DNA from: Sporosalibacterium faouarense
GTDB lineage: Bacteria > Bacillota > Clostridia > Tissierellales > VENL01
Assembly: GCF_016765695.1 (NCBI RefSeq)
Contig: NZ_JAETGO010000088.1
Coordinates: 1 to 34,794 of the forward strand
DNA: 34,794 bases
Direction: 5' to 3'
This document shows positions 27,437 to 34,150 of this stretch, piece after piece. Numbering within the stretch: position 1 is the first letter of the stretch; the number at the start of each line of letters is the position of its first letter. The position numbers and the translations under genes are program-made. A model generated the notes under the pieces. That model was not told the DNA's origin and searched no databases. It saw only the letters and a program-made list of their open reading frames with translations.

Positions 27437-29155
27437 TTAGCTTCTTGAATGATAATGTGTATGAAGTAATTTATGGGATTTTTCTCCCAAGGGCTCTTTG
27501 AGAAATTCCTCATATAATATATTTACAACTGGATTTTCATGGGATTTTCTCAACTCAGAAAGTGTATCTACATTATAGATAGCCTCTATTCTTTTTTCTT
27601 TAACTTCATTAGTTCCAGGTATTGGCTGACCACCGCCACCTATACATCCACCTGGACAACACATTATCTCAATAAAATGATAATTTGCTTTTCCTTCCTT
27701 CACTAAATCTAAGATTTTCCTTGCGTTTTCTAAACCATTTGCTACTGCAACATTAACCTCTAAATCTCCAACATTTACAGTTGCCTCTTTTGAACCTGCT
27801 AGACCACGTAAATCTTTAAAATCTATATTTTCTAGTGTTTCCTTAGTTACAACTTCATATACAGTCCTTAATGCAGCTTCCATTACCCCTCCTGTAGCAC
27901 CAAAAATTGCAGCTGCACCTGTTGATATGCCCAGTGGATCATCAAAATTTTCTTCTTCTAATTCATTTATCTGAATCCTCGACTCTTTAATCATTCTGCC
28001 TAATTCCCTAGTAGTTAAAACTATATCCACATCTTGATACCCACTATCATTCATCTCTTTCCTAACTGCTTCTGCTTTTTTAGCTGTACATGGCATGATA
28101 GATACTACAACAACATCCTTTGGATCCAATCCTTCTTTCTCTGCATAATAAGATTTTGCTAATGCTCCAAACATCTGCTGAGGAGATTTACAGCTTGATA
28201 CATTATCTAATAATTCAGGATAGAAATATTCTATATATCTTACCCATCCTGGACTACAAGATGTAAACATCGGCAATTTGCCGCCATTATTTAACCTATG
28301 GAGAAGCTCATGTCCTTCTTCAATTATAGTTAAATCAGCGGTAAAATTAGTATCAAATACCTTATTAAATCCAATTCTCTTTAAGAAAGCAACTATGTTA
28401 CCAGTTACTATGCTCCCAGGATCTTGCTCAAATTCTTCTCCTAGTGAAACTCTAATAGCTGGTGCTATTTGTACTACCACATGCTTTCTTCCATCTTCTA
28501 ATGCATCCCATACTTTATCTATATCGTTTTTCTCGTATATTGCACCTACAGGACAGACATTTATGCATTGACCACAATATACACAAGCGACTTCACTCAA
28601 CTTCCTATTTAATGGAGTGCTAATCTTCATTTCGCTTCCTCTATTTATGTTATATATAGCTCCTACTCCTTGAACCTCATGACAAGCAGTTATACATCTT
28701 CCACATTTAATACACTTGCTTTCATCTCTAACTATAGATGGATTTGAATTATCTATTGGCAAAGATTTATTTATTTTTTCTAATTTTGTGTCTCTTATAT
28801 TTAACTCCATACAGAGATTTTGCAATTCACAGTTCCCATTTCTCACACAGGCTAGACATTCTTGATTATGATCCGCTAAAATAAGATTTAAAATTGTCCT
28901 TCTAGCCTCACGAACTTTCTTGCTTCTAGTTTTTATTTTCATTCCTTTACTCACAGGTGTACAACAAGCAGCCACAAGATTTCTTTGGTTTTCTACTTCG
29001 ACTACACACACTCTACAACTTCCTTTAACTGCTTGATCTGGGTGATAACATAGGGTTGGTATCCTTACATTAACCATTTTAGCAGCTTCAAGTATTGACG
29101 TTCCTTCCTCTACTAATACATTAACTCCATCAATGTTTATTTCAACCTTAGGCAT
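27437..29155 (-). CDS. hydA: [FeFe]-hydrogenase catalytic subunit (NADH-linked type)
   Basis: Soluble enzyme that makes or oxidises H2. It has 572 residues: a [2Fe-2S] domain (Cys36, 47, 50, 64), a His/Cys-ligated [4Fe-4S] (His96, Cys100, 103, 109), two [4Fe-4S] (Cys148-158 and 191-201 with Cys158/201 exchange), and the H-cluster domain with L1 TSCSPGW (Cys300), L2 MPCTAKKAE (Cys356) and L3 MCCPGGCIGGGGQP (Cys500, Cys504). The small-subunit tail follows. It stops at HTHYHSRS and lacks the C-terminal [2Fe-2S] of bifurcating HydA. ATG at 29155 is preferred, with AAGGGGG nine nt upstream, over an in-frame TTG at 29164. It overlaps hydB by 8 nt. Confidence 0.96.
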   Translation of the reverse strand: MPKVEINIDGVNVLVEEGTSILEAAKMVNVRIPTLCYHPDQAVKGSCRVCVVEVENQRNLVAACCTPVSKGMKIKTRSKKVREARRTILNLILADHNQECLACVRNGNCELQNLCMELNIRDTKLEKINKSLPIDNSNPSIVRDESKCIKCGRCITACHEVQGVGAIYNINRGSEMKISTPLNRKLSEVACVYCGQCINVCPVGAIYEKNDIDKVWDALEDGRKHVVVQIAPAIRVSLGEEFEQDPGSIVTGNIVAFLKRIGFNKVFDTNFTADLTIIEEGHELLHRLNNGGKLPMFTSCSPGWVRYIEYFYPELLDNVSSCKSPQQMFGALAKSYYAEKEGLDPKDVVVVSIMPCTAKKAEAVRKEMNDSGYQDVDIVLTTRELGRMIKESRIQINELEEENFDDPLGISTGAAAIFGATGGVMEAALRTVYEVVTKETLENIDFKDLRGLAGSKEATVNVGDLEVNVAVANGLENARKILDLVKEGKANYHFIEIMCCPGGCIGGGGQPIPGTNEVKEKRIEAIYNVDTLSELRKSHENPVVNILYEEFLKEPLGEKSHKLLHTHYHSRS

Positions 29156-30443
29156 TAGCTGCAACCCCCTTTTTCATTTTGCATTTTCCTACTTCACAAC
29201 TTCCGTTAATATGATCTTCATACTCTTCTTTGAAATACTTAATAGTTGTTATTAAAGCAGTTGGTGCTGCTTGCCCAAGTCCACATAGGGAAGCTTCCTT
29301 CATTACATTGGATATTTCCTTAATTAACTCTAAATCTCTTTCTGTAGCTTCTCCTTCTGTAAATTTATTCAAAATTTTAATAATATGTCTATTCCCTTCT
29401 CTACAAGGAGTACATTTTCCACATGATTCATGATCGAAAAACTTTGTAGTATTTTTAACAAAGTCGGGTATACAAATAGAATCATCTACCACTAATATAG
29501 CTCCTGAACCTAACCCTATATTTAATTTGCTAAGTTCATCAAAGTCTAGCTTTGTATCTAATAATTCTTCTGGAAGACAGGCTCCAGATGAACCTCCTAA
29601 TTGTACAAACTTAATTTTCTTATTTTCCTCTATTCCACCACAAACATCATATATTATTTCTTTTAATGATGTTCCAAACTCAATCTCATAGACTCCTTTA
29701 TTCACAACACTACCTGAAACTGATATTAACTTTGTTCCCGCACTTGAGTCAGTTCCATAGTTCTTATATTCATCAGCACCTAATTCCATTATTATAGGTA
29801 TATTAGCTAGTGTCTCAACATTATTGACTAAAGTAGGTTTTCCCCATAGTCCTTTATTAGGTGGATAAGGAGGTTTAAATCTAGATCTGCCAGGATTTCC
29901 TTCTATTGATTCTATTAATGCGGTTTCCTCTCCACAAACATAAGCTCCAGCTCCTGATCTAACTTCAATATCAAAGCTAAAATTCTGACCTATTATATTA
30001 TTTCCTAATATCCCCTCTTCCCTAAGAATGTTTAATGCCTTTACTAAAATTTCCTTTGATTTTGGATACTCTCCTCTTATATATATATATCCTTTAGTTG
30101 CTCCTATAGCATATGCACCTATAATCATTCCTTCAATAACTTGAAAGGGACATCCATCTAGAAGAATTTTGTCCTTAAATGTTCCTGGTTCTCCTTCATC
30201 AGCATTACAAATAATATATTTTTCATCCTTTTCTTCCATTGCAACAAATTTCCATTTTAATCCTGTTGGGAATGCTGCTCCACCTCTACCCCTAAGTGAT
30301 GATTTAGTAACTTCATCAATTACTTCCTTAGGAGTCATATTAAACAATGCTTTCTCGAGTCCTTTAAATCCTCCATTGTTTTTATATTCTTTTATAGATA
30401 AAGGACTTATTTTCCCACAGGCTCTAGAAATTAAATTAACCAT
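29148..30443 (-). CDS. hydB: NADH-binding flavoprotein subunit of the hydrogenase (NuoF-like)
   Basis: Transfers electrons between NAD(H) and the iron-sulfur chain through FMN. It has 431 residues. The FMN/NADH site RGRGGAAFPTGLKW (51-64), GEPGTFKDK, and GAGAYVCGEETALIESIEG (164-182) are intact, as is the [4Fe-4S] motif CGKCTPC (341-347) with Cys387. Both flanks are short: no N-terminal thioredoxin-like domain, and the C-terminus ends at SCEVGKCKMKKG, just where the two-cluster ferredoxin domain of bifurcating HydB would begin. ATG chosen for AAAGGAGGGG; hydC ends 1 bp before. Confidence 0.95.
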   Translation of the reverse strand: MVNLISRACGKISPLSIKEYKNNGGFKGLEKALFNMTPKEVIDEVTKSSLRGRGGAAFPTGLKWKFVAMEEKDEKYIICNADEGEPGTFKDKILLDGCPFQVIEGMIIGAYAIGATKGYIYIRGEYPKSKEILVKALNILREEGILGNNIIGQNFSFDIEVRSGAGAYVCGEETALIESIEGNPGRSRFKPPYPPNKGLWGKPTLVNNVETLANIPIIMELGADEYKNYGTDSSAGTKLISVSGSVVNKGVYEIEFGTSLKEIIYDVCGGIEENKKIKFVQLGGSSGACLPEELLDTKLDFDELSKLNIGLGSGAILVVDDSICIPDFVKNTTKFFDHESCGKCTPCREGNRHIIKILNKFTEGEATERDLELIKEISNVMKEASLCGLGQAAPTALITTIKYFKEEYEDHINGSCEVGKCKMKKGVAANA

Positions 30444-30444
30444 A

Positions 30445-30876
30445 TTAATTCCCCTCCTTTCGTAACATTTCAACCAATTCTCTAATTTTCTCTTTATTTA
30501 ATCCCCCATATACTTCATTATTTATTTTTACTGCCGGTGCTATGTCGCATGCTCCTATGCAGCTTGTGAATTCCAATGAGAATTTTTTATCTTCCGTTAC
30601 TTCCCCCATTTTAATTCCTAATTCTTCTTCGAATATTGTTGCTATATTATTCGCCCCTTGTATATAACAAGGTCCACTATTACATATTTGAACTACATAT
30701 TCTCCCCTTTCCTTTGTTGAAAGCATGGAGTAGAAGCTAGCCACTCCATGCACTTTACTCAATGATACTCCTAATTCTTTAGATATTTCCTCTAATTTAT
30801 CTTCGGAAATATAATGACCTTTAGAATTTTTCTGTACATTGATTAAGGTTTCAATTAACTTATCTTTCCCAATCAT
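30445..30876 (-). CDS. hydC: Thioredoxin-like [2Fe-2S] hydrogenase subunit (NuoE-like)
   Basis: A 143-residue electron-transfer subunit that docks to HydB. An N-terminal helical part (about 1-60) with LGVSLSKVHGVASFYSML, the NuoE signature, is followed by the thioredoxin-like fold with the four ligands CNSGPC and SCIGAC, complete. ATG at 30874-30876 is used because AAGGGGG is 8 nt before it; an in-frame GTG three codons upstream overlaps the site. It lies 13 bp after the small [2Fe-2S] gene and 1 bp before hydB. Confidence 0.95.
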   Translation of the reverse strand: MIGKDKLIETLINVQKNSKGHYISEDKLEEISKELGVSLSKVHGVASFYSMLSTKERGEYVVQICNSGPCYIQGANNIATIFEEELGIKMGEVTEDKKFSLEFTSCIGACDIAPAVKINNEVYGGLNKEKIRELVEMLRKEGN

Positions 30877-30889
30877 TTTACGCACCCCC

Positions 30890-31250
30890 TTAGTTTTTTA
30901 AAAGCCAATCCTCAATATTTTCATTATATAAAGAATGTGATATTACTATAGCTTTTGCCATTTTTGCATCCACGAGCTCATAGGTGTATCTCTCACCATC
31001 TGAGGTAAAAATATCTAATAATGGTTCCTTCGAACATAATCCAATACATCCCGTGGTTTCAATGATTACATCATCTATTTCAGCTTCTGATATTACTTCT
31101 TGAAGGGCTTTTAATACACTACCTGCTCCTACACTAACACTACATTTTGAGTATCCTAAAACAGCTCTTATTTTTCCTTTTTTTCGCTTTTCCCTTATAT
31201 TTTCTTCAGCTGCTTTTCTCAGTCTTTGATACATTTCTAAATCTGTCATT
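30890..31250 (-). CDS. Small [2Fe-2S] thioredoxin-like protein (stand-alone N-terminal domain of HydB)
   Basis: A 120-residue protein. A helical N-terminus is followed by a thioredoxin-like ferredoxin domain with GYSKCSVSVGAG (Cys36) and TTGCIGLCSKEPLLDI (Cys68, Cys72). Only three cysteines are present in the whole protein, so a fourth cluster ligand is not obvious. It corresponds to the N-terminal domain that is fused to HydB in other hydrogenases but missing from HydB here. ATG at 31248-31250 has GGGGGG six nt upstream; an in-frame ATG at 31267 has none. First gene of the hydrogenase operon. Confidence 0.85.
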
Positions 31251-31285
31251 TCTAACCCCCCAATCATTATTTACTAATATAAGTT

Positions 31286-31303
31286 GCATATAGCGTGCCA
31301 AAT
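31286..31303 (-). promoter_or_regulatory. Sigma-54 promoter of the hydrogenase operon
   Basis: Minus strand reads TTTGGCACGCTATATGCA. Compared with the consensus TGGCAC-N5-TTGCW, the -24 hexamer TGGCAC (31296-31301) is exact, the spacing is exact, and the -12 element is ATGCA (31286-31290), one mismatch, with the required GC intact. The start would be near 31275, giving a short leader before the GGGGGG at 31256-31261. It lies next to a sigma-54 activator gene. Confidence 0.8.
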
Positions 31304-31480: not shown

Positions 31481-34150
31481 TTAATTATGCTCTAGCGCAT
31501 CATTTTTAATATATTTTTGTATCTTTCTTACCACAGTGGATTGATTTATATTTAAAGCTTTAGCCATCTCGTATGTCGTTCCATATTTAGCATATGCTTT
31601 CTCTACAAGCTTTTTTTCAACTATTTCTACGGCTTCTTTTATAGGAATAATTCCTTCCACCATTATTCCTTGGTAAACTCCACTACCTTCATTATATAAA
31701 AATAAAGGTAAGTCTTTTTCATCAATAATATTCTTAGTAGTAGTAACTATTAATCTCTCAATTATATTTTCTAATTCTCTTATATTACCTGGCCATGTAT
31801 AATTTAATAAAACCTTTTCAACCTCTGAAGTAATATCTTTATTACAGGAATACTTTTTATTAAAATATTTTATAAAATGATAGCACAAAGGTATTATATC
31901 CGATTTTCTATTTCTTAGAGGAGGAATTTCTATGGGTACAACGTTTAATCTATAGTATAAATCCAATCTAAAGTTACCCTCCATTGCCATTTTGTAAAGA
32001 TCTCTATTAGTAGCAGCAATAACTCTAGTATCAACATTCTTCTCTTTAGTTCCTCCTATACGTACTATTTTCTTTTCTTGAAGAAATCGCAAAAGCTTGA
32101 CTTGTAAGTTTAATGGCAACTCTCCAATTTCATCTAGAAAAAGAGTTCCTTCATGGGCCAATTCTATCAATCCAGGTTTCCCTTTACTTCTGGCTCCTGT
32201 AAAGGCTCCTGTCTCATATCCAAAGAGCTCTGACTCTATTAAATTTTCTGGAATAGCACCACAGTTTATTTTAACAAAGGGCTTATCTTTTCTGTCACTT
32301 AGATTCTGTATAAACTTTGCTACTACTTCCTTTCCTACTCCTGATTCACCCAGTATTAGCACTGTAGAGTCAACCGTTGAAATATTACTTGATATTTGAA
32401 GAACTTCGCCAAACTCTTGACTATTTACTACTAAATTATTCGTGTTAAATTCTATTTTTTCTCTCTTACCTTTATCACTATTATGATACTTCTCTAATTT
32501 TTTAGTTTCTTCAAGCTGATTTCTCAATTTATTTAGTTCATTGATATCTCTGATATTGGTAACTACTCTTTTTATATTCCCATTTTCATCAAATATAGGA
32601 GTGGCAGTAGATAGAAAGTTTTTACCATCTTTCCCTTTTTGCATAAATGAGATTCTTCGCTTCTCTCTCAATGCCAGCATAGTTGCAGACGGAAATACTA
32701 TATTTTTCTCTTCTATTTTCTGAACTGAAGTTTCTTCTTTATCATCAGAGTATCCAGTCATTCTTTTCCAAGCTCTATTTGTCTTCTGAACATTCCCATA
32801 ACCATCTGTAACGACTAACCCGTCATAAGAAGATTGAATAATTGTTTCTAATTGTTCTTTTAACTCCGATATTTCATTAAATTTAATAGACAATTCGTCT
32901 AAAAGCTTAGTTTTTTTAGATAATAAATATGGAAAGCACATATCCACTTCAGCTATTCCTTGTAATACTGCTATTGCTTTTTCTCTACAAGTAGTGTAGC
33001 CACATGCTCCACAGTTAAGTTCGTCTTCTTTTGCAAATTTATTTGTTTGTCTTAATACCTCCTGAATTTCTTCTTCGGAAGGAAATGGCATGATACTTCT
33101 CTTATTTCTATATTTTCTAATAAAATCTGCATTTAATGCTATTTCTTTACTAGATTCTTGACTTTTATCATTAACTTCTATGGACTCTTCATAGTAATTT
33201 AAGATTCTATTTTTCTTTTCAAAGTGATTTAATTGAGAGTCTATTTTAGGACCTTCAATACATCCTTCACACATTAATATATCTGCTATTTTAATTGAAG
33301 TTCTACCATTTGAAAGTGCCTCTATTAATTTTAAGCATTCCTTATCACCTTCAATAAATGAATATTCAGTTTCTTTTAATTGCTTTGATATTTCTAAATT
33401 TACTAATAATCCTCCTGACAAAGGAAAAAGCTTTCCTTTTTTAGAGTAAATACTATCGAATGTGTCTTGTCTTGACCTATTTACATTGATTCCCTTTTCC
33501 TTAAACATTTCCTTTAATTCATCAAATGTTAATACCACATCAACGGACCTTCTAAATTGAGGTTCATCTGCTTCTGCTTTTTTTGCTACACAAGGACCTA
33601 TAAATACAACCTTAACATCATCATTCTTATATTTCTCTTTTATTACTCTCCCTGTAGCAACCATTGGAGATACAAAAGGAAGCAAATATTTTATTAACTC
33701 TGGATAGTGCTTTTCTATCATTGATACAAAAGCTGGACACGATGAATTTAAATAAGTTTTTTTGGGATTAACCTTTATAAAATCATCAATTTCTCTAGCT
33801 AATAGCTCTGCCCCTATTGCAGTTTCCCATACCTCTGAGAAACCTAACTCTTTTATTGCACCTATGACTTTATTTACTTCGTTTTCTCCAAAGCTAGCAG
33901 CAAAGGACGGAGCTAAACAGGCAACGACTTTCTTATCTTTTTTTAAAATTTCTAAAGCTTTTCCTTTACTATCTAATACAATTTTGGCTCCTTGAGGACA
34001 GCTTTTTATACACTTACCACAGTTTATACATCTTGAATGTACTATCTGTGCTTGCCCATTGGTTATTTGTACGGCTTTAACCTGACAATTCCTAACACAT
34101 GAGTAGCATTGCTTACATTTGTTTTGGGTTACACTAATGATATCTTGCAT
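31481..34150 (-). CDS. Sigma-54 activator fused to a ferredoxin/[FeFe]-hydrogenase-like sensor module
   Basis: An 889-residue cytosolic regulator. Domains: two [4Fe-4S] clusters (Cys12, 15, 18, 22 and 41, 44, 47, 51); [FeFe]-hydrogenase large-subunit domain (about 74-320) with L1 NSSCPAF (Cys138), L2 GPCVAKKAE (Cys187) and L3 MCEGCIEGP (Cys294, Cys297); a Fe-S domain CGAC-x4-C-x16-C (380, 383, 388, 405); PAS (about 432-540); sigma-54 AAA+ with Walker A GESGVGKE (601-608), GAFTGA (648-653), Walker B FLDE (671-674); TyrR-like HTH at the end (about 858-882). All four cubane cysteines are present, but L1 lacks the TSCxP form, and L3 has CxxC instead of CxxxC. A sensory role for H2 or redox is inferred. 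GGGGGAGG precedes the ATG. Its target is probably the sigma-54 promoter just downstream. Confidence 0.93.
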   Translation of the reverse strand: MQDIISVTQNKCKQCYSCVRNCQVKAVQITNGQAQIVHSRCINCGKCIKSCPQGAKIVLDSKGKALEILKKDKKVVACLAPSFAASFGENEVNKVIGAIKELGFSEVWETAIGAELLAREIDDFIKVNPKKTYLNSSCPAFVSMIEKHYPELIKYLLPFVSPMVATGRVIKEKYKNDDVKVVFIGPCVAKKAEADEPQFRRSVDVVLTFDELKEMFKEKGINVNRSRQDTFDSIYSKKGKLFPLSGGLLVNLEISKQLKETEYSFIEGDKECLKLIEALSNGRTSIKIADILMCEGCIEGPKIDSQLNHFEKKNRILNYYEESIEVNDKSQESSKEIALNADFIRKYRNKRSIMPFPSEEEIQEVLRQTNKFAKEDELNCGACGYTTCREKAIAVLQGIAEVDMCFPYLLSKKTKLLDELSIKFNEISELKEQLETIIQSSYDGLVVTDGYGNVQKTNRAWKRMTGYSDDKEETSVQKIEEKNIVFPSATMLALREKRRISFMQKGKDGKNFLSTATPIFDENGNIKRVVTNIRDINELNKLRNQLEETKKLEKYHNSDKGKREKIEFNTNNLVVNSQEFGEVLQISSNISTVDSTVLILGESGVGKEVVAKFIQNLSDRKDKPFVKINCGAIPENLIESELFGYETGAFTGARSKGKPGLIELAHEGTLFLDEIGELPLNLQVKLLRFLQEKKIVRIGGTKEKNVDTRVIAATNRDLYKMAMEGNFRLDLYYRLNVVPIEIPPLRNRKSDIIPLCYHFIKYFNKKYSCNKDITSEVEKVLLNYTWPGNIRELENIIERLIVTTTKNIIDEKDLPLFLYNEGSGVYQGIMVEGIIPIKEAVEIVEKKLVEKAYAKYGTTYEMAKALNINQSTVVRKIQKYIKNDALEHN

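Follow-up and report, generated by a model that had tools for sequence, protein, structure and literature searches.

A probably non-bifurcating, NADH-dependent [FeFe]-hydrogenase operon with a retained hinge site and a fused sensor-regulator in Sporosalibacterium faouarense

Introduction

Among the described multisubunit [FeFe]-hydrogenases, the HydABC enzyme of Syntrophomonas wolfei (Hyd1ABC) has been assayed as ferredoxin-independent and is described as using reduced nicotinamide adenine dinucleotide (NADH) only, with a HydB of 407 residues that has neither the N-terminal [2Fe-2S] nor the C-terminal [4Fe-4S] domain (PMC5626996). The enzyme of Syntrophus aciditrophicus (HydAB), an α2β2 complex in which HydC and HydB are fused, was likewise assayed as ferredoxin-independent and makes H2 from NADH in the account of PMC7311640. 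On the bifurcating side stand the HydABC enzymes of Thermotoga maritima, Acetobacterium woodii and Thermoanaerobacter kivui, whose HydB carries both an N-terminal domain and a C-terminal domain (CTD), and the four-subunit HndABCD of Solidesulfovibrio (Desulfovibrio) fructosivorans, which was reported to be without the HydB N-terminal domain (Losey 2017) and has since been described as bifurcating (PMC10084766). According to Losey 2020, three regions of HydB separate non-bifurcating from bifurcating enzymes, with the caution that the number of cluster domains alone does not divide the groups. Published accounts disagree on a further site, at the hinge preceding the CTD, which is taken either for a [2Fe-2S] cluster involved in bifurcation or for a Zn of structural role (PMC8880783 vs PMC9499530): its positions are reported to bind Zn in T. 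maritima (PMC9499530) and in StnB, and the same positions, together with a fifth ligand, are assigned to the [2Fe-2S] cluster 'B2' in the A. mobile enzyme (PMC9304861, PMC8880783).

Here we describe a HydABC operon with a short HydB on the minus strand of a 34,794-nucleotide stretch of Sporosalibacterium faouarense DNA (contig NZ_JAETGO010000088.1, positions 1 to 34,794; referred to below as the window). We consider it probable that its product is a soluble [FeFe]-hydrogenase which depends on NADH and does not bifurcate, composed of HydABC and an HndB-type subunit D, with a kept Zn site and under the control of a sensor. It would then probably be a variant of the NADH-only hydrogenases already described, its new elements being retention of the hinge site, a subunit of the HndB type and control by a sensor and sigma-54.

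A short HydB with non-bifurcating residues

The open reading frame (ORF) of HydB has 441 codons, by which residues are numbered here, but the likely start is the ATG at 30443, preceded by a ribosome-binding-site-like stretch, which leaves a protein of 431 residues, about 24 more than in S. wolfei HydB, which we compare by description. Pfam recognises the flavin mononucleotide (FMN), SLBB and [4Fe-4S] domains, with one [4Fe-4S] site (C351, C354, C357, C397). Residues 15-435 align with residues 149-569 of the 626 in the T. maritima chain 7p5h_B, that is, over the core only, so that HydB starts after the N-terminal domain and stops before the CTD of the bifurcating chains. In alignments to solved bifurcating HydB-type chains we found neither an N-terminal thioredoxin-like [2Fe-2S] domain nor a CTD with two [4Fe-4S] clusters, and the tail contains no CxxCxxCxxxC motif. 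A structural comparison with T. maritima was proposed in the initial annotation as a check; the predicted structure (mean predicted local distance difference test score, pLDDT, 81.2) matches T. maritima HydB (7p8n_b) with a template modelling score (TM-score) of 0.90 by query length. The initial annotation was thus right that HydB has no thioredoxin-like N-terminal domain and that it stops before the CTD of larger forms, although the true end, SCEVGKCKMKKGVAANA, lies 10 residues past C431 and five past the end it had quoted; as an argument for non-bifurcation, however, the missing N-terminal domain is not decisive, since Hnd is reported to be without it and yet to bifurcate.

Of the 249 genomes searched in the order, 11, the source genome among them, carry a HydB of equal length within an identical five-gene order, with frames of 426-449 codons and at least 67% identity to the window HydB (67-79%), while the next HydB in the order, among the matches listed, reaches at most 54%. 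Given this conservation of length and gene order, the short HydB reflects neither a frameshift nor chance.

All four of the residue differences published by Losey 2020 read non-bifurcating in the window HydB (Table 1; T. maritima HydB numbering equals window numbering + 134). T98 and K100 align to positions 232 and 234, where non-bifurcating enzymes are given Thr/Ser and Lys/Ser/Ala, respectively; Y178, in the motif GAGAY, and the SLBB-domain motif GGSSG replace the Phe and the GGPSG of the T. maritima, A. woodii and T. kivui enzymes, with which the window HydB otherwise shares its core fold. The printed position of the Phe in Losey 2020 is 367, but the aligned T. maritima chain has it at 312, and we take the printed number to be a slip or to follow another numbering. 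The non-bifurcating HydB residues are also those described for S. aciditrophicus HydAB.

To place these residues in context we compared 96 HydB sequences, a non-random set of related rows. It comprises 11 sequences from operons of the window's type and 7 further short HydB, then the 29 best profile matches and another 39 chosen for their frame length (20 short, 19 long; L183 repeats L165 and was omitted); 3 additional sequences of the source genome, 6 from a separate search and a T. maritima segment complete it. The residues are of the non-bifurcating pattern in 65, of the bifurcating pattern in 30 (including the truncated T. maritima segment) and mixed in 1. With the T. maritima segment and the mixed sequence left out, the cluster motifs of the CTD are present in 0/65 HydB of the non-bifurcating pattern vs 25/29 of the bifurcating pattern (Fisher p 6e-19, overstated since the rows are related), so that the tie between residue pattern and CTD is strong. 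The initial annotation had suggested ferredoxin independence and a need for low H2 pressure; T98, K100, Y178, GGSSG and these counts back that suggestion, which we still infer rather than observe. In a non-bifurcating, ferredoxin-independent enzyme, low H2 would be favoured when the enzyme makes H2.

The catalytic subunit HydA

HydA has 575 residues as an ORF and 572 from its likely start, the ATG at 29155. It shows the full set of Pfam domains, including the H-cluster domain with the motifs TSCSPGW, MPCTAKK and MCCPGGC, and ends with the Fe_hyd_SSU domain (519-574), whereas T. maritima HydA, matched up to residue 551 of 645, extends further. The extra C-terminal [2Fe-2S] domain that the initial annotation had noted as missing is therefore indeed absent, but this absence is not diagnostic: the solved bifurcating HydA of A. 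woodii (583 residues) and T. kivui (571 residues), which align end to end with that of the window, are without it too, and we rejected it as evidence for non-bifurcation.

The family assignment discriminates no better. HydA scores 912 bits against the NCBIfam model NF040763, 'NADH-dependent [FeFe] hydrogenase, group A6' (cut-off 765), but T. maritima, a bifurcator, lies above the cut-off as well, so that the A6 label does not separate NADH-only from bifurcating enzymes in genome annotation, and we discarded it as a test. The model is exceeded in 275 of the 398 genomes of the phylum that were searched. As a separate observation, the first H-cluster motif of HydA reads TSCSPGW in 58/58 readable cases beside a HydB of the non-bifurcating pattern (7 of the 65 stretches are without a readable motif or without HydA) vs 7/13 beside one of the bifurcating pattern.

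A retained three-Cys-one-His site at the hinge

In the window HydB all four ligand positions of the hinge site are complete (Table 1), at positions shared with T. maritima, and Thr occupies the proposed fifth position, 372. PMC9304861, work of the Schut group, has the site His absent from non-bifurcating homologues, counting the S. wolfei enzyme among them. The window HydB, in contrast, has H421, and the His is kept in 59 of the 65 HydB of the non-bifurcating pattern; the published statement rested on a handful of enzymes, and our survey disagrees with it. Genome annotation therefore cannot take the site His as a sign that an enzyme bifurcates.

All four residues are complete in 56/65 sequences of the non-bifurcating pattern, a proportion that is not a prevalence, as the profile search was ranked by the short-form profile and only its best matches were listed. 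In the window's own clade they are kept in 10 of 11 (L076 has lost all four) while the adjacent tail residues vary, and they are likewise present in each of the five short HydB (L085-L089) that come from other families of the class. Where the site is incomplete (9/65), all four residues are changed or missing in five cases (L069, L077, L076, L135, L166) and some of them in four, so that an all-or-none loss of the site was rejected. L069 and L077 come from genomes (G216, G217) with a D-bearing operon, and are second, D-less short HydCBA copies in which the hinge site is lost.

Position 372 behaves differently. It is Thr or Cys in 27/30 HydB of the bifurcating pattern, but Thr in only 13/65 of the non-bifurcating pattern, where Ala or Ser predominate (40/65), and in the window's clade (n = 11) we find 6 Thr, 4 Ile and 1 Ala. 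As the fifth-ligand position is poorly kept among sequences of the non-bifurcating pattern, a four-ligand Zn site fits better, and judging from these alignments the site in short forms is most likely a four-ligand structural Zn site. Natural enzymes that have the site but neither the CTD nor the bifurcating pocket separate the variables of the hinge-site dispute, and the metal bound by one such enzyme, together with its activity, would bear directly on that dispute.

Evolution of short and bifurcating HydB

We computed a tree of 74 rows, thinned at 80% identity and with three NuoF-type rows as an outgroup on long branches. The HydB of the bifurcating pattern, other-phylum and mixed rows included, fall on one side of a single branch (support 100). 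Rooted on NuoF, they form a clade within the short forms, adjoined by the forms that bear the N-terminal domain (support 97); a single clade of non-bifurcating HydB was not rejected by the approximately unbiased (AU) test (p-AU 0.289), and in the FastTree version the ingroup branch has a value of 0.151. The hinge site undergoes at least 7 changes of state on a tree with 59 labelled rows.

One reading of these results, put forward tentatively and with the odds somewhat against it, is that a widespread, CTD-less, NADH-only HydABC of the phylum keeps the complete site, which would be older than bifurcation and independent of it, and that bifurcating HydB arose a single time out of this grade, gaining first the N-terminal domain and then the CTD along with the changes in the FMN pocket and the fifth ligand at 372. 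The converse, that the short HydB came about by degradation of a bifurcating one and that its kept hinge site is a relic being lost, we regard as unlikely: the incomplete sites, those changed at all four positions among them, the repeated changes of state and the AU result, with which loss from a bifurcating ancestor would be compatible, speak for it, but the four residues persist in the window's clade amid a varying tail, and the NuoF outgroup places the bifurcating clade inside the short forms.

The operon and its fourth subunit

On the minus strand the genes run in the order sensor-regulator, D, HydC, HydB and HydA, in which from D to HydA each gene overlaps the next or lies within a few bases of it (Table 1), and the same single order is found in 11/11 D-bearing operons. 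The initial annotation had taken positions 27437-31250 as HydABC; all three subunits do lie there, but a fourth gene, D (30890-31267), had been overlooked. Named carriers of the operon are Caloranaerobacter azorensis (L008, on the same contig as L071) and a metagenome-assembled genome of the Tissierellales (L007, on the same contig as L066). Across the class, a short HydB (E <= 1e-155) occurs in 5 of 391 genomes besides the source genome; in the stretches fetched around these five, no D gene was found, and the regulator is present at two (L085, L086).

Table 1. Features of the hydrogenase locus in the window (positions 1 to 34,794 of the contig)
Feature	Position	Strand	Description	Basis
hydA	27437..29164	-	[FeFe]-hydrogenase catalytic subunit	ORF, PF02906, PF02256, NF040763, motifs, PDB matches
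hydB	29148..30473	-	NuoF-like FMN/NADH subunit, short form	ORF, Pfam, PDB alignment, motifs, model
HydB H421, C426, C431 (HINGSCEVGKC)	29181..29213	-	other three ligand positions, at the hinge preceding the CTD in bifurcating HydB	
HydB C334	29472..29474	-	first ligand position; equals C438 of the A. mobile enzyme	alignment offset
HydB GGSSG 293-297	29583..29597	-	SLBB-domain motif, aligned to 427-431; GGPSG in bifurcating enzymes	
HydB Y178 (GAGAY)	29940..29942	-	Tyr near FMN, non-bifurcating pattern; Phe in bifurcating enzymes	
HydB T98, K100	30174..30182	-	NADH-site residues, non-bifurcating pattern; bifurcating enzymes have A/E and M	
hydC	30445..30885	-	NuoE-like thioredoxin-like [2Fe-2S] subunit; likely ATG 30876, 143 aa	PF01257, 149 bits
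hydD/hndB-like	30890..31267	-	thioredoxin-like; conserved C42, C74, C78; likely ATG 31249, 119 aa	
Sigma-54 promoter-like element TGGCACGCTATATGCA	31285..31300	-	35 bases before the likely hydD ATG	
Sensor-regulator	31481..34150	-	two [4Fe-4S] motifs, [FeFe]-hydrogenase-like (HydS-type) domain, FeS domain, PAS, sigma-54 AAA+ (GAFTGA), helix-turn-helix	Pfam, motifs

Subunit D has no Pfam match, but it matches the N-terminal domains of NfnB, StnB and HydB chains in the PDB (best E 8e-12), and the same thioredoxin-like domains are also recovered with its predicted structure (mean pLDDT 75.2; best E 1.2e-5). Among the nine D proteins of the 11 operons that were aligned, identity to that of the window is 58-77%, and three Cys are invariant. 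We asked if D could be a relocated HydB N-terminal domain and rejected this: the window D reaches 92.7 bits with a profile built from 46 other stand-alone D proteins, collected by similarity to D, which favours that profile, vs 48.3 bits with one built from 61 HydB N-terminal domains (83-96 vs 44-52 bits for the D proteins of the 11 operons), and it has three, not four, cluster-type Cys. The Cys patterns agree with the profiles, the three-Cys pattern being found in 46/46 stand-alone D proteins and the four-Cys pattern in 58/61 HydB N-terminal domains. By its predicted fold, its three Cys and its place beside hydABC, D is classed as a stand-alone thioredoxin-like protein of the HndB type, HndB being likened to it by description. 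As HndB of Hnd is described as probably lacking a redox centre (PMC10084766), D, by analogy, probably has none either, in which case it would not restore the [2Fe-2S] cluster missing from HydB. The window operon thus shares with HndABCD, as described, its four subunits and the HndB-type small one, but differs from that bifurcating enzyme in being without the CTD and in its non-bifurcating residues.

A fused sensor-regulator and a sigma-54 element

The sensor-regulator gene lies upstream in 11/11 D-bearing operons, and the hydrogenase-like domain, PAS and the sigma-54 AAA+ domain with GAFTGA are present in 13/13 regulators examined. The H-cluster loops are complete in the window (NSSCPAF, GPCVAKK, LMCEGC) and, by strict patterns, partial in several relatives. 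The protein shares with HydS, the putative sensory group C, its [FeFe]-hydrogenase-like domain and PAS, as well as a Ser in NSSCPAF where a proton-transfer Cys would be expected, but differs from it in being fused to a sigma-54 AAA+ activator and a helix-turn-helix. The role of that position in proton transfer is treated in PMC8924675. A search of the open-access literature by title and abstract found no paper on a sigma-54-fused [FeFe] sensor. Among NCBIfam models, the C-terminal part of the regulator is nearest to that of the proline-reductase regulator PrdR, below the model's cut-off.

The promoter-like element before hydD is the sole match in the window with at most one mismatch, where 0.03 are expected, and a TGG-N9-TGC[AT] element stands before D in 11/11 D-bearing operons. 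In single relatives shuffled sequences often equal its score (up to 271/1000, in L072); the element alone would be a weak indication, and the argument is its recurrence at the same place in all 11. Among seven D-less short-HydB loci also examined, two of them cut by contig ends or by a long upstream ORF call, it occurs at L085 alone. The source genome encodes two copies of RpoN.

Proposed function and alternatives

In the mechanism that we propose, NADH would pass a hydride to the FMN of HydB, from which electrons would travel singly over its [4Fe-4S] cluster and the clusters of HydA to the H-cluster, where protons would be reduced, reversibly. Ferredoxin would not dock, since there is no CTD, and the residues of the FMN/NADH pocket are complex-I-like, not of the bifurcating kind. 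The three-Cys-one-His site would most likely bind Zn in a structural role, fixing the helical bundle of HydB at its C-terminal end. D would most likely have no redox centre and serve in structure or assembly. The fused sensor and sigma-54 activator would act at the promoter before hydD to turn on the operon, probably in response to H2 or the redox state, H2 being the obvious guess; such control would be apt for an enzyme that runs in one direction or the other according to H2 pressure and NADH/NAD+. The source genome has one match to HydF above the cut-off and two copies of RnfC, by which NADH and ferredoxin are exchangeable without the window enzyme.

The physiological direction could be the opposite one, H2 uptake that yields NADH, with the sensor inducing the operon at high H2. 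The enzyme class is described as reversible (PMC7311640), activation of the operon by an H2 sensor would be as consistent with uptake as with evolution, and with RnfC present twice NADH could turn over by other routes; the well-studied relatives, however, produce H2 from NADH, and we judge a mainly uptake role to be improbable.

Several points weigh against a non-bifurcating enzyme. Four of the 29 HydB with the bifurcating pattern are without CTD motifs (the second copy of L011, the first of L078, L079 and L169), so that pattern and CTD are imperfectly tied; the survey is non-random and its rows are related; and the residue criteria are founded on few assayed enzymes, the two assayed non-bifurcating ones being known here from descriptions, not sequences. 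The window HydB itself has Thr at 372, like bifurcating [FeFe] enzymes, and, if the statement in PMC9304861 is followed, retention of the site His could mean some bifurcating ability. That the enzyme still bifurcates or confurcates, with ferredoxin docking on HydA or D and the hinge site acting as a [2Fe-2S] 'B2' that carries the low-potential electron, would agree with the complete site, Thr 372 and a fourth subunit as in Hnd, but is quite improbable given the missing CTD, the four non-bifurcating residue differences, the failure of position 372 to be kept across the remaining sequences of the non-bifurcating pattern and the absence of the four-Cys pattern from D.

Further hydrogenase genes in the source genome

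Two other loci of the source genome carry HydB-type genes. At L079 (5868-7523; G000:C18) there is a second HydABCD-like operon with a HydB of 551 residues, which shows the bifurcating residues AM, F and GGPSG, yet is without the CTD and without the hinge site (NFHG), and in which one Cys of the [4Fe-4S] site is substituted (CGKCAAG); the accompanying HydA retains the H-cluster (TNCCPAW). L078 (G000:C62) has two adjoining HydB-type genes, one of full length with the CTD (596 residues) and one without it (541 residues), together with two D-type genes and a 350-residue HydA-like protein without a match to the H-cluster domain, and HydF is encoded on the same contig.

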